Shown here: in pieces, positions 16,313-21,036 of the stretch
How the letters are laid out: every line of letters starts with the position of its first letter
How positions within the stretch are numbered: the first letter of the stretch is position 1
Assembly (NCBI GenBank): GCA_902617805.1
Contig: CACMYF010000008.1
Span: 1 to 41,212 of the forward strand
DNA: 41,212 nt
Direction of reading: 5' to 3'
Source: an uncultured Pelagibacteraceae bacterium
GTDB taxonomy: Bacteria > Pseudomonadota > Alphaproteobacteria > Pelagibacterales > Pelagibacteraceae
Notes under the pieces: generated by a model
Databases searched by the model: none
What the model was told of the DNA's origin: nothing
What the model saw: the letters and a program-made list of their open reading frames with translations, nothing else
Made by a program: the position numbers and the translations under genes

Positions 16313-16420
16313 TACCTATTATTTAGGCACTGCTATTGTTTTAGTGATAAAATAAATAGACACTGAAACTTAAAAAAATGAGAACAAACGAAGAAACTTA
16401 TGTTGATATTTTTATTTGAA

Positions 16421-16779
16421 GTGCCAGATAAACTATAAGCCGGGTTCTGTCATTTAAACCTATCATTTGTCTAGGCTTAAGATCACTCTTAAGCTCAAGC
16501 AACTAACCCTGATGACTAGCCAAGGACGGCTTTTAGTTTTTCAACAATGTCATCTCTACTTAGTCTTGCTCCCAGTGGGGTTTTCCAGCGTTCATTGTTA
16601 CCAATAGAACCGGTGTGCTCTTACCACACCTTTTCACCCTTGCCATGTTATGGCGGTTTATTTTCTGTGGCACTATCCCTAGGGTTTCCCCCGCCAGGTA
16701 TTACCTGGCACTGTGTCCTTGTAGAGCCCGGACTTTCCTCTTTAAATTTAATTAAAGCGATAAGTCATTTATCTGGCAA
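16421..16779 (-). ncRNA. rnpB: RNase P RNA (bacterial type A)
   Basis: This is the catalytic RNA of RNase P, which trims tRNA 5' leaders. On the minus strand the 5' end holds the near-universal block GAGGAAAGTCCGGGCTC, and the 3' end holds the matching ACAGAACCCGGCTTA; together these form the conserved core including P4. The ends pair as P1: TGCCAGATAAA at the 5' end with TTTATCTGGCA at the 3' end, which sets the limits to within a few bases. A GGTGTGGTAAGAGCACACCGG segment typical of the specificity domain is also present. It lies between the amidase gene and the dcw promoter. Confidence 0.97.
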
Positions 16780-18471: not shown

Positions 18472-19053
18472 ATGAAAAAAATAATTTTAATATTATTATT
18501 ATTAAATCTAAACAACCATGTTTACTCAATTGAACCAGATGTTTTTGTTCAATCTACAGTAAATAGAGCATCTCAGATACTTTCAAAAAATATTTCTAAA
18601 GAGGAAAAAATTGATAAATTAAAGAGTATCGCTAAAGAGACTGTTGATATTAAAGGAGTGGGTTTTTATTCACTTGGTTCAACTAGAAAAACGTTAAACG
18701 ATAATCAAAAAAAACAATATCTTTTTTTATTTGAAAATTATTTTTTAAAAAGCTTTTCTAGTAGATTATCAGAATATACAAATCCTGAAATTGATGTAAC
18801 TAACAAAGAAGTATTAAATAAAAATTATACAATAGTTAATAGTATTTTAGTAGCTACAGAAAACAGACCTGAAGTAAAAATTGACTGGCGAATTTACACA
18901 AAGAACCCAAACAATCCACTAATCAGAGATTTAATAATAGAAGGTCTCAGCCTAGCTAGAACTCAAAAAGAGGAATTCGCATCAATTCTAAATTCTAACG
19001 ATGGTGACATTAACGCTCTTTTTAAAACTTTAGAAGAATTTTCAAAAAATTAA
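18472..19053 (+). CDS. mlaC: Periplasmic phospholipid shuttle MlaC (Ttg2D family)
   Basis: MlaC carries phospholipid across the periplasm between MlaA and the MlaFEDB transporter. The 193-residue product has a signal peptide (about 1-19, ending VYS). The body fits the family: an N-terminal helical stretch, then FYSLGSTRKTLNDNQKKQY, FENYFLKSFSSRLSEY, and a beta segment containing VKIDWRIYT and IRDLIIEGLSLARTQKEEF. Length is normal. No mlaFED genes occur nearby, so the transporter must be encoded elsewhere. Confidence 0.92.
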   Translation: MKKIILILLLLNLNNHVYSIEPDVFVQSTVNRASQILSKNISKEEKIDKLKSIAKETVDIKGVGFYSLGSTRKTLNDNQKKQYLFLFENYFLKSFSSRLSEYTNPEIDVTNKEVLNKNYTIVNSILVATENRPEVKIDWRIYTKNPNNPLIRDLIIEGLSLARTQKEEFASILNSNDGDINALFKTLEEFSKN

Positions 19054-19068
19054 ATGCTTAATAAAGAG

Positions 19069-19113
19069 TGGTGGGCCCGCCAGGACTCGAACCTGGGACC
19101 AATACATTATGAG
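19069..19113 (-). repeat. Left attachment-site repeat: truncated copy of the tRNA 3' part
   Basis: These 45 bases are identical to 20827-20871, the 3' part of the intact CAU tRNA gene (CCA end, T arm, variable loop, anticodon 3' stem and anticodon loop). Similarity continues for about seven more bases with two mismatches, then stops. The D arm and 5' acceptor strand are missing, so this is not a tRNA gene. It is the expected displaced half of a tRNA split by site-specific integration. Confidence 0.9.
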
Positions 19114-19175
19114 AGTCCTGAGAAAATCCAAATTAACATAGTAATACTTTGCTTATTTAAATTTGATTTTAATTC

Positions 19176-19199
19176 TTACACAATTTCGTACACAACGAA
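19176..19199 (-). repeat. Left inner repeat, probable integrase arm-type site
   Basis: The 24-base unit matches 20733-20756 with two differences. On the minus strand it contains two TTGTGTA heptamers 12 bases apart separated by CGAAA. A further related AGTGTACG, in the other orientation, sits at 19222-19229 next to the stop of the following gene. Tandem short direct repeats near an att core are typical of integrase arm sites; binding is inferred. Confidence 0.55.
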
Positions 19200-19230
19200 A
19201 AAATGAAATTAAAGAAATAAAAGTGTACGT

Positions 19231-19800
19231 TTAATCAAATTCACCCTCTTTAGTCATCACTGGTAAATCAAACATTATATCTCTTAATTTTTTTTTGTAT
19301 TTTTCTAGGTCTATAAATTCGTAATATTTTATAAAATTTGATGTTTCTGTAACGTTATATATTTCTAATCTTTTAAAAAAATATTCCATAAAGTTAATTC
19401 TTCGCTCTATGTATAATAATTTTGCTTCCTCCATTTCACTATATGCCATAGCGTGCATTTCTAAGGATGCGGGAAACCAATGAGCTTTATAATAATCATC
19501 TAAATTAAATAAATCAGATGGTTTCCAGATAATTTTTCTATTACCAAATCCAAGATCTTTAACAAAGTTTTGAAACATCCCGCCCCCATCTTCAGTAGCA
19601 AATGGAACTCTAGGATGAGCTTGGGTTCTATCAGTTATATCTAAAAAGATACCCTCTAAATGTTGCAGCTGACCGTATTTTGTATTTCCTTTTTCGATTA
19701 GTTCTTCCATACCTTTGTGAAGTTCTTTTGCAAACTCATAATCTTGATTTTCAAAATAAATATTTGTTCTTTTTTGAAAATAATTACGGATAAAGTTCAT
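19231..19800 (-). CDS. Hypothetical protein, soluble, last gene of island cassette
   Basis: I do not recognise this 189-residue protein. It has no signal peptide or membrane segment. It is rich in aromatic and charged residues, with a glycine stretch (ATEDGGGMFQNF, about residues 69-80) and a long probable helical region in the C-terminal half with several Glu, Met, Tyr and Arg residues around HWFPASLEMHAMAYSEMEEA. An in-frame TTG at 19809 directly after the previous stop could add three residues; the ATG at 19800 is preferred. It ends beside the left inner repeat. The tight junction with the upstream membrane protein suggests a joint role. Confidence 0.75.
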   Translation of the reverse strand: MNFIRNYFQKRTNIYFENQDYEFAKELHKGMEELIEKGNTKYGQLQHLEGIFLDITDRTQAHPRVPFATEDGGGMFQNFVKDLGFGNRKIIWKPSDLFNLDDYYKAHWFPASLEMHAMAYSEMEEAKLLYIERRINFMEYFFKRLEIYNVTETSNFIKYYEFIDLEKYKKKLRDIMFDLPVMTKEGEFD

Positions 19801-19809
19801 TAATTTCAA

Positions 19810-20124
19810 TTATTTGCGTGAAGAAGCTCCCATTGAAGCATAAATAATTATCATAATAAAAAAAATAATTCCCATTAATAGAGATTTTTCATAATAGATG
19901 TCTGAAAATTTTTCATATACTATTTTGGAATCAGCCAAAGTTTGAACTATTAATCTAAAAGGAAAAAAAATTAAATCTTCAAAACTATCAAAGCCATATT
20001 TCAAAATTGAGAAAAAAGAAATTACAAGGAGAATCAAAAATTTACCAACTAACCAAATAACACTTAAAGAAACCCATAAAGGAAAGGTAAATACGATCCA
20101 TATAAAGTGTCCTAAATTTTCCAT
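19810..20124 (-). CDS. Hypothetical small membrane protein, island cassette
   Basis: The 104-residue product is not recognised. It has a long N-terminal hydrophobic region (about 6-44, possibly two helices), a central amphipathic part with aromatic and acidic residues (FDSFEDLIFFPF), and a C-terminal transmembrane helix (about 82-98) ending in a short basic tail. It overlaps or abuts the following gene with no gap, so translation of the two is probably coupled. Confidence 0.7.
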   Translation of the reverse strand: MENLGHFIWIVFTFPLWVSLSVIWLVGKFLILLVISFFSILKYGFDSFEDLIFFPFRLIVQTLADSKIVYEKFSDIYYEKSLLMGIIFFIMIIIYASMGASSRK

Positions 20125-20153
20125 ATAGTTAAAAAAATTACCAAAATTTTAAT

Positions 20154-20387
20154 TTAAAAACATCTAATTTTAAATGAATTTGGAAAAATTCCCTTTTCTG
20201 AGGTAGTCTCACAAAGCTTTTCAACTACTCTTGTTACTCCACGTTCAAAAATTTTATTTCTGGCTGGATCAAGGCCATAATCTCCCGCTTTAGCTTCAGA
20301 GATTAAACTATCTTTAAAAATTTGAACATTTAAGATGATTATTCCTATAGCAATTATTGTTAAAATTGATTTAGTATATTTATCCAT
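20154..20387 (-). CDS. Hypothetical small single-pass membrane or exported protein, island cassette
   Basis: The start chosen is the ATG at 20387, because AAAGGAGA lies at ideal distance upstream; this is one of the few strong Shine-Dalgarno sites in the window. The frame is open to 20423 but the longer form lacks such a signal. The 77-residue product has a hydrophobic helix (about 6-24) and a short extracytoplasmic-type tail with ISEAKAG, which could be a cleavage site. Two cysteines (in KLCETT and IRCF) near the C-terminus could form a disulfide. No function is recognised. Confidence 0.7.
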   Translation of the reverse strand: MDKYTKSILTIIAIGIIILNVQIFKDSLISEAKAGDYGLDPARNKIFERGVTRVVEKLCETTSEKGIFPNSFKIRCF

Positions 20388-20425
20388 AAAGTCTCCTTTC
20401 TTTTGTAAAAAAAGTTTAAACATTT

Positions 20426-20692
20426 TTAAAACAAACTTCCAATACCTATAACTACTATTGCAAAAATGATTATTAAAATTATTGAATTTTTATTATTGCT
20501 AGCTTCGTAATGCTGAAAACACATACCATTATGTTTTTCTCTAACACCTGAAAGATTATAACATCCGTCTATAATACATTTGGGACTTTTGTCAGAAAAT
20601 ACTGTTGTAGGTGCAGGAACACCGCACTTTGGACAATTGCTAGCTTTATCTGAAACATCATTACCACACTCTTTACATTCATAAATTGCCAT
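20426..20692 (-). CDS. Zinc-ribbon membrane-anchored protein, first gene of island cassette
   Basis: The 88-residue product starts with a treble-clef/zinc-ribbon motif, CKECG...CPKCG (Cys at 6, 9, 20, 23), as in short zinc-ribbon domains. A second Cys/His cluster follows (C39, C44, C58, H61) that could bind another metal. The C-terminus is a transmembrane helix (about 69-87), so the metal domains probably face the cytoplasm. It is the promoter-proximal gene of the island and separated by 38 bases from the next. The partner of the ribbon (nucleic acid or protein) cannot be told. Confidence 0.75.
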   Translation of the reverse strand: MAIYECKECGNDVSDKASNCPKCGVPAPTTVFSDKSPKCIIDGCYNLSGVREKHNGMCFQHYEASNNKNSIILIIIFAIVVIGIGSLF

Positions 20693-20732
20693 TAAAAAAC
20701 ATTATCAGACTAGTACATTTCAAAAAAGTTAA

Positions 20733-20756
20733 TTACACAATTTCGTATACAATGAA
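20733..20756 (-). repeat. Right inner repeat, probable integrase arm-type site
   Basis: This matches the left unit at 19176-19199 in 22 of 24 bases and in the same orientation. It lies 70 bases from the right core repeat and upstream of the zinc-ribbon gene. On the minus strand it carries TTGTATA and TTGTGTA heptamers 12 bases apart. The rest of 20693-20826 shows no gene. Confidence 0.55.
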
Positions 20757-20826
20757 GGCTTCATCTCTTCATTTTTTTGAAAAATTTTATAAAATTTAAA
20801 TTTTTTAACGTTGATTTTACTAGATT

Positions 20827-20903
20827 TGGTGGGCCCGCCAGGACTCGAACCTGGGACCAATACATTATGAGTGTACTGCTCTAACCAACTGAGCTACAGG
20901 CCC
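20827..20903 (-). tRNA. tRNA with CAU anticodon, probably tRNA-Ile2 (lysidine-modified)
   Basis: The 77-base gene folds into a full cloverleaf: a 7-bp acceptor (GGGCCTG with CGGGCCC, one U-G pair), D arm GCTC/GAGC, anticodon loop CTCATAA, T stem CCAGG/CCTGG with TTCGAGT loop, discriminator A, and encoded CCA. CAU could be Met or Ile2. The C4-G69 and C5-G68 acceptor pairs are recognised by TilS in E. coli tRNA-Ile2, so Ile2 is favoured. The 3' part serves as the integration site of the adjacent island. Confidence 0.93.
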
Positions 20904-20961: not shown

Positions 20962-21036
20962 TGGTGGGCCGTGTTGGTTACGCTCCAACTACCCCTGCAA
21001 TGTCAATGCAGTACTCTACTATTGAGCTAACGGCCC
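20962..21036 (-). tRNA. tRNA-Val (GAC) with atypical D and T loops
   Basis: All four stems pair: acceptor GGGCCGT/ACGGCCC, D stem GCTC/GAGT, anticodon stem CTGCA/TGCAG with loop TTGACAT (anticodon GAC), and T stem GTTGG/CCAAC. Discriminator A and CCA are encoded. The T loop is AGCGTAA instead of the usual TTCGANT form, and the D loop is only AATAGTA, lacking the GG pair. It begins four bases after the rpoD stop on the same strand, so it may be processed from the rpoD transcript. Confidence 0.85.

Follow-up and report, generated by a model that had tools for sequence, protein, structure and literature searches.

Small integrase-free cassettes with shared ends at a tRNA gene of SAR11 bacteria, probably mobilised in trans

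SAR11 bacteria are extremely abundant and streamlined, and to our knowledge the way in which they acquire accessory genes is poorly known. Several described systems come close to the locus presented here. In Dehalococcoides, 15 islands at ssrA were without integration modules and were suggested to be possibly cis-mobilizable (PMC3146451). Tycheposons are described as elements of 4-200 kb which, in the cases given in that paper, carry a recombinase (PMC10872708), and the same source describes an additive flexible island of 'Ca. Methylopumilus', fGI-2, which is recognisable by repeated copies of the final 20 bp of tRNA-Lys. PMC2217521 discusses indels of genes within core regions of SAR11, in passages that leave the mlaC-tRNA locus unnamed, and tyrosine recombinases and tRNA genes were reported beside a transferred operon in Pelagibacterales (PMC12416821). 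Here we analyse an insert of 1,758 bp (core start to core start) in a tRNA gene on contig CACMYF010000008.1 (assembly GCA_902617805.1; uncultured Pelagibacteraceae bacterium), a stretch of 41,212 nucleotides that is called the window throughout, together with related elements that we name family A and of which a literature search that mostly excluded subscription journals returned no description. The window organism appears to belong to SAR11, judging from named contigs that carry the same right end.

The integration target is an intact tRNA gene with a CAU anticodon on the minus strand (20827..20903; ARAGORN; Rfam tRNA, 72.7 bits). Its 3' part (right core, 20827..20871, minus strand) recurs as an exact 45-bp copy at 19069..19113 (left core, minus strand); identity between these two attachment (att) sites is 100% over 45 bp and 96% over 52 bp, and the repeat extends from the 3' CCA end of the tRNA to the anticodon loop. 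Between the cores lie four open reading frames (ORFs), all on the minus strand, for which searches against Pfam and PHROGs gave no recombinase match; a match of a window ORF to a PHROG named 'transposase' was dismissed as noise (E = 0.23). The insert is bordered on the left by mlaA and mlaC (mlaC at 18472..19053, plus strand; Pfam MlaC, E = 7e-29), with the mlaC stop 15 bp ahead of the left core, and on the right by tRNA-Val(GAC) (20962..21036, minus strand; ARAGORN, Rfam) and then rpoD.

Both ends of the window insert are shared with inserts in other genomes (G031, the first insert of G120, and G045), although most of the genes differ, and the name family A refers to these elements with common ends. 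The conserved left end of the window element is located at 19114..19232 (alignment of four elements; consensus of 18 elements, from which G068 and G395 were left out) and the conserved right end at 20708..20826 (alignment of six elements; model R1); in the family the conserved ends measure approx. 115 and approx. 125 bp. The right-end model, R1, which was built from six sequences and includes 2-3 tRNA bases, matched 41 of 399 genomes of the genus at E <= 1e-3 (24 of these at E <= 1e-8), and the left-end model, R2, built from four sequences and including 9 core bases, matched 22 of the 399, the source genomes of the models (six for R1, four for R2) being among the matches. Both ends were present on one contig, 1.0-3.3 kb apart, in 19 genomes. 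Scanning a species-genome collection (84,980 genomes) with a right-junction pattern identified 30 contigs, titled Pelagibacteraceae, Pelagibacterales or Pelagibacter; by our reading most of these have single-cell style names, and four have the prefix MAG. Twelve of the 30 yielded further complete elements, giving 31 in total with lengths of 1,061 to approx. 3,325 bp (the latter in G068) and a median of 1,832 bp. Family A was found here only in SAR11. All 19 model-found elements are located at this tRNA, 17 of them with the intact gene directly after the right end; in G120 the right end is followed by an insert of a second family (family B) and then by the intact tRNA gene, and in G337 the family-A core is followed by a neighbouring integrase island. 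Stacking of this kind was seen for A and B in G120 and G256 and for A and an integrase island in G337. The displaced 45-bp core is exact in 24 of the 31 elements, including that of the window, and the repeat can therefore not be due to chance; among decayed members, the core of G395 has 12 mismatches and that of G068 is broken up.

A search for the tRNA pair in the window genome and 199 relatives (200 genomes in total) gave a match in 199, and the locus was fetched from 80 relatives, a non-random set ranked roughly by tRNA match, of which 77 had mlaC on the contig (38 further fetched stretches stand outside this count). In 52 of these 77 relatives the site is empty on the mlaC side: the mlaC stop is located 2-58 bp from an intact tRNA in 50, and L082 and L091, also included in the 52, have gaps of 24 and 36 bp and a mismatched tRNA. 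In some of the 52, other inserts occupy the space that separates the two tRNAs. Four relatives, i.e., L040 (G102), L043 (G031), L053 (G120, where two inserts lie in tandem) and L059 (G045), have an insert on the mlaC side with a clear copy of the tRNA 3' part, and L037 (G068) has a degraded copy. The remaining 20 relatives have different stretches between mlaC and the tRNA; among the 11 of these that were read, six have one common conserved gene unrelated to the cargo, four have other genes, and L051 (G070) has a gene of cargo family c1, without a tRNA copy, which is probably a decayed cassette.

Two other features were observed around the same tRNA. A conserved two-gene stretch of approx. 1.1 kb, unrelated to the cassettes and apparently vertically inherited, is located between mlaC and the tRNA in L046, L075, L104 and similar relatives, and L104, L106 and L052 gave a weak match to the family-A right end as well. 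On the other side of the tRNA, L066 (G105), L071 (G094) and L077 (G107) have inserts of approx. 3.2, 13.8 and 20 kb, respectively, which leave a copy of the tRNA 5' part near tRNA-Val; no tyrosine integrase was matched within the fetched parts of these inserts.

Distances between family-A ends and between the mlaC genes of the hosts were uncorrelated (r = -0.08; 1,610 of 2,000 permutations at least as high; Mantel test, n = 27, with G068, G395 and one more element left out). In G277 and G341, the two common cargo genes are 98% identical at the DNA level, as compared to 75% for mlaC and 83% for rpoD; the ends and the common cargo are 97-98% identical, and the values immediately outside the element are 82% on the left and 71% on the right. 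As identity falls just outside both cores, the exchanged tract stops at the cores, and in this pair no high-identity tract extends into mlaC or the tRNA spacer. Eight further pairs showed identities of 70-84% on the mlaC side as compared to 95-98% in the left cargo stretch, with end sequences that vary from 73 to 99% and an rpoD side that aligned poorly in several. Among 95 cargo gene pairs, 57 were more alike than the mlaC genes of their hosts, 42 of them by more than 10 points. Overall, mobility of the cassettes is well supported. A preliminary description of this DNA had reported a perfect 45-bp tRNA duplication bounding four same-strand genes without a recombinase, which ARAGORN, the repeat alignment and searches with Pfam, PHROGs and hidden Markov models (HMMs) bear out, and had read it as the site-specific insertion of a mobile unit into a tRNA gene, in agreement with the empty sites, the host-independent spread and the edges at the cores; the empty sites that it proposed to look for, with an intact tRNA directly by mlaC, are those present in 52 of the 77 relatives.

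Within the window insert there is a second repeat pair (19176-19199 and 20733-20756; 92% identical), in which a 17-bp motif is directly repeated: the left copy, CAATTTCGTACACAACG (consensus CAATTTGGTATACAATG), is located at 19181..19197 (plus strand; +113 from the core start) and the right copy, CAATTTCGTATACAATG, at 20738..20754 (plus strand; -89 from the right core). With at least 12 of 17 bases matching, CAATTTGGTATACAATG was found at +112/113 on the left in 25 and at -88/89 on the right in 24 of the 31 elements; with at least 13 of 17, the numbers were 22 and 24, respectively. The best score in any cargo interior was 12, and among 3,000 mononucleotide-shuffled 200-bp ends, 200 reached at least 12 and 27 at least 13 at any position. 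Directly repeated arms around a core are like those of tyrosine-integrase phages, and repeats at a fixed distance from a core resemble the arm-type sites of tyrosine integrases; by their placement, the 17-bp motifs are candidate integrase arm sites. Different sequences occupy the arm positions in G245, G308 and G421. The left end also contains GTGTAC (19223..19228; +155 from the core start, and at +154/155 in the four elements first compared). Adjoining the right core is AACGTTGATTTTA (20807..20819), which is possibly an integration host factor (IHF)-like bend site; a part of it, GTTGATTTTA, was found in the final 30 bp ahead of the tRNA in 19 of the 31 elements, and none of the 52 empty sites has it next to the tRNA. 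Among the 29 elements that have a minus-strand rightmost ORF, 14 have the start of this cargo ORF at a distance of 147-152 bp from the core, which prompted the idea of a built-in promoter.

An integrase HMM, built from 31 SAR11 integrase and Xer-type proteins, gave no match at E <= 10 inside any of the 31 family-A elements; in a scan of the whole loci, the match in G337 represents its neighbouring island. The same tRNA is, on the other hand, also used by integrase islands. In that of G010, the gene for a 322-aa tyrosine integrase lies 89 bp beyond a 52-bp copy of the tRNA, and genes for DNA methylase and Z1/ResIII helicase come next. Among the 399 genomes, 21 matched a profile of this integrase at E <= 1e-5, and the CAU tRNA copy precedes the integrase gene in four of the 399, i.e., G010, G337, G415 and G447 (where the integrase gene has one internal stop); the integrase islands of these four genomes have the same core as family A and different arms. 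Other integrase loci with a readable site (L243-L257; partly read by eye) have other tRNA or transfer-messenger RNA (tmRNA)(-like) sequences and short repeats of their own immediately ahead of the gene. The island in G337 directly adjoins a family-A cassette and has the core in common with it, one such case among the 31 elements. Family B (G102, G120 and G256) is also without an integrase match and has a 54-bp core in the first two members; in the two members read, its arms are TGAGTAC, the reverse complement of the GTACTCA arms of the integrase islands read at this tRNA, and it may be mobilised by an integrase of this type. Searches beyond the genus found 786 matches of the whole tRNA in phage records, none with at least 95% identity, 12 viral loci that matched the integrase profile at 22-26% identity, and 113 phage-record matches of the G010 integrase, all below 60%.

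The cargo of family A is variable and mosaic; G031, G341 and G277, for example, have the same first and last genes and a different middle. With L314 excluded, 30 complete elements and 5 partial pieces contain 110 ORFs of at least 50 aa in 69 clusters, 52 of them with a single member, and some of the short plus-strand ORFs are probably spurious. The c1 gene is present in ten elements and accompanied by c2 and c3 in six; the orientation of this module in G474, G423 and G461 is opposite to that in G245, G308 and G421, the group with different arm sequences. Sixty cargo representatives, which leave out clusters below 60 aa and most plus-strand ORFs, were compared with Pfam at E <= 0.001, and matches included T5orf172/MUG113 (GIY-YIG), MrcB_N with NucS_C, HNH_4, a HATPase domain, alpha/beta hydrolases, Adhesin_E and zinc ribbons; at most 22 of the 60 can have a Pfam match, so that most are without one. 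No Pfam match of the 60 names a transfer function, and the names integrase, AlpA and primase do not occur among their matches (those in PHROGs being mostly without a name). PADLOC returned mostly candidate PDC models and weak Cas matches, from which no known defence systems are claimed, and some of the cargo could serve in phage defence. A near-identical signal peptide (MKKLLGIVVLGLLLSGNAYA-like) was also observed to open otherwise different cargo proteins in G068, G341, G251, G288, G272 and L317, as if secretion leaders were shared or recombination occurred there.

We interpret the window island as a non-autonomous integrative cassette of family A that is mobilised in trans, with a probability of roughly 0.78. 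Mobilisation in trans, a circular intermediate, the function of the arms and a vehicle between cells are what we infer from the above patterns. The mobile unit would consist of an attachment site and cargo, i.e., the 45-bp core, the conserved ends and one to a few genes, with the directly repeated 17-bp arm motif at each end, and its mobile form would be a circle in which right end, core and left end are joined. The arms would be bound by a tyrosine integrase that another element supplies, and this enzyme would cut within the common core and link the cassette circle to the tRNA gene; the cassette core would rebuild the tRNA 3' part, the displaced copy would stay beside mlaC, and excision would restore the empty site. 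Mobilisation by the integrase of another element, which the preliminary description had offered as an option, stands as the best inference, but the integrase that it calls for, i.e., one with matching arm sites, was not found.

Several observations count against this interpretation. The methods used here found no integrase with TACACAA-type arms in the 399 genomes, viral contigs and phage records, and the integrase islands read at the CAU tRNA have GTACTCA arms, unlike family A. Exact scans of viral contigs with the 45-bp core, a 27-bp core, the right junction and the arm motif gave 0 matches; blastn searches against phage gave 6 weak matches for the right end (E = 0.4), none of them credible, and matches to 178 records for the left end, where all of the matches listed (best ten) were tRNA genes and none was credible. 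The window genome (assembly 78% complete) has one PF00589 protein, Xer-like and 325 aa long, which is encoded elsewhere in the genome. Neither a circle junction nor an A-A tandem was seen. Among the 95 cargo gene pairs, 38, many of them of family c1, were not more alike than mlaC, and some of the sharing is therefore old. As the right-junction pattern contains the tRNA 3' end, its 30 matches are located at this tRNA by construction, and as the 17-bp motif was derived from the same elements, its scores of at least 12 or 13 are partly built in, the fixed positions being the stronger point; the right motif is, moreover, missing in seven and the left in six of the 31 elements. A built-in promoter was also considered and is unsupported, since a sigma-70 scan gave promoter-like sites no more often in the elements than in shuffles. 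The matching integrase may be rare, reside in unsampled phages, or be carried by elements with different ends.

A decayed island had been a further option of the preliminary description: the elements would each be left over from a larger island with an integrase, would have lost that integrase independently of one another and would no longer be able to move. Some members (G395, G068) are indeed decayed and integrase islands do occupy the same tRNA, but common ends, arm spacing and a narrow size range in 31 elements, none with an integrase-HMM match, the exact displaced core in 24 of them and the near-identical integrase-free cargo in divergent hosts disfavour this option, which we consider improbable. 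The cargo could also have been moved by ordinary recombination in the flanks, without any site-specific step. Recombination is frequent in SAR11 and is visible within elements, as the left ends of G031 and G277 are 82% identical and the next stretch 98%, and L314 is a mosaic in which one protein is 97% identical to that of G251 and another 100% identical to those of G272 and G413. Flank recombination does not, however, account well for the fall in identity at both cores of G277/G341, for the empty site in 52 of 77 relatives or for host and end similarities that are uncorrelated, and we regard it as very improbable.

The enzyme acting on the cassettes could instead be the Xer-like recombinase of the host, the sole PF00589 match in the window genome; 53 of the 73 genus genomes searched have such a match, mostly a single one of approx. 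325 aa. Xer enzymes normally use dif sites without arm sites, and the integrase islands at this tRNA bring their own integrase and arms, which makes the host enzyme a highly doubtful candidate. The separate two-gene stretch between mlaC and the tRNA of some genomes looks vertically inherited, as the window insert would be if it were an ancient fixed feature; the preliminary description held that this would apply if all relatives had the same four genes and partial tRNA copy, and the 52 empty relatives, the patchy presence of the cassettes and cargo that, in many pairs, is far more alike than the hosts leave practically no probability for it. Packaging of the cassettes by a helper phage that also supplies the integrase would be a special case of mobilisation in trans. 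Marine satellites are described in PMC10803314 and PMC11389934, and the narrow size range is compatible with packaging limits; a 1.8-kb unit would, however, need concatemers, integrase, AlpA and primase names are absent from the (mostly unnamed) matches of the 60 cargo representatives, and an exact search did not find core and ends in viral contigs, a result that leaves packaging possible. We judge this special case rather unlikely.

Returning to the window cassette, none of its four ORFs has a Pfam match that reaches its curated cut-off. ORF1 (19231..19800, minus strand; 189 aa, cluster c4) has no Pfam match at E <= 1, no viral relative and no significant match in a PDB search (best E = 0.42), and its AlphaFold model (mean predicted local distance difference test score, pLDDT, 46) is too poor for use. 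Relatives of ORF1 are present in the G120, G083 and L295 elements, with a remnant in G251, and an ORF1 profile run over 81 genomes matched in the window genome and G037. The G037 copy adjoins a gene read by eye as groEL and is without tRNA or family-A ends; because this copy is located outside a cassette context, the ORF1 gene family is not confined to cassettes. ORF2 (19810..20124, minus strand; 104 aa) is hydrophobic by eye, and ORF3 (20154..20387, minus strand; 77 aa, or 89 aa, to 20423, from an upstream start) has, also by eye, an N-terminal hydrophobic segment. ORF4 (20426..20692, minus strand; 88 aa) combines an N-terminal zinc ribbon, a weak Pfam assignment (DUF7129, E = 1.8e-4, and Zn_ribbon_3, E = 0.0016, both under curated cut-offs), with a C-terminal hydrophobic segment and has a close copy in the G323 element (92.5% DNA identity). 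The CAU tRNA itself may belong to the Ile2 (lysidine) type and not be a tRNA-Met; ARAGORN assigns names from the anticodon alone, and phage annotations give similar tRNAs as either Met or Ile. Elsewhere in the window, an RNase P RNA of bacterial class A was identified at 16420-16776 (minus strand; Rfam, 290 bits).

Overall, these data suggest that a borrowed enzyme shuffles genes at this tRNA site. More tentatively, and with somewhat less than even confidence, SAR11 may have a system of cassette exchange at a single tRNA gene, in which minimal units of an att site and one to a few genes circulate under an integrase acting in trans, an integron-like swapping of genes at near-zero genome cost in which some of the cargo would be solitary nucleases with a phage-defence flavour; the cargo list does include restriction-like nucleases. 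Family A represents a concrete and testable route of gene acquisition, with predicted att sites, arm motifs and known empty sites. It predicts an undiscovered integrase, perhaps in pelagiphages, and broadens the concept of helper-dependent mobile elements to include units of approx. 2 kb with exchangeable cargo.

Compared to the described systems, family A has the intact tRNA on one side, the displaced fragment at the far end and the empty sites of tRNA islands, while the integrase HMM found none of the integrases that such islands own in the 31 elements. With tycheposons, as described in PMC10872708, it shares the marine or aquatic streamlined hosts and the tRNA anchor, but the comparison made in the preliminary description fails on size and recombinase, as family A measures 1.06 to approx. 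3.3 kb, rather than 4-200 kb, and lacks the tyrosine recombinase. The island fGI-2 resembles it in that repeated tRNA ends bound variable genes in a streamlined aquatic bacterium, and the description of fGI-2 in the same paper, unlike ours, mentions no conserved-end family or arm motifs. The phage-inducible chromosomal minimalist islands (PICMIs), minimalist phage satellites described in PMC10803314, are likewise small, site-specific and marine, but are described there as encoding integrase, AlpA and primase; these genes (int, alpA, primase), by which PICMIs and phage-inducible chromosomal islands (PICIs) are recognised, were not matched by name in the 31 elements or the 60 cargo representatives. 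Clusters of attC sites lacking integron-integrases (CALINs), i.e., integrase-free integron cassettes, and miniature inverted-repeat transposable elements (MITEs), in the account of PMC11389934, are similar in being non-autonomous and using an enzyme in trans; family A differs in its site, which consists of a core from a tRNA and of arms in direct repeat (no search aimed specifically at attC sites was made). The attL and attR sites and the absence of integrase and transfer genes that characterise cis-mobilizable elements (CIMEs) are found in family A, as judged from cores, arms and HMM with PHROG matches mostly unnamed, and like the Dehalococcoides ssrA islands, as described in PMC3146451, its elements are att-flanked, integrase-free, located at an RNA gene and able to lie in tandem with other islands. 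In contrast to the CIMEs of that description, family A is a defined family of 1-3 kb with conserved ends, a recurring arm motif and exchangeable cargo; a relative that has an integrase and the same arms was not found, and one element among the 31 was seen beside an integrase island.

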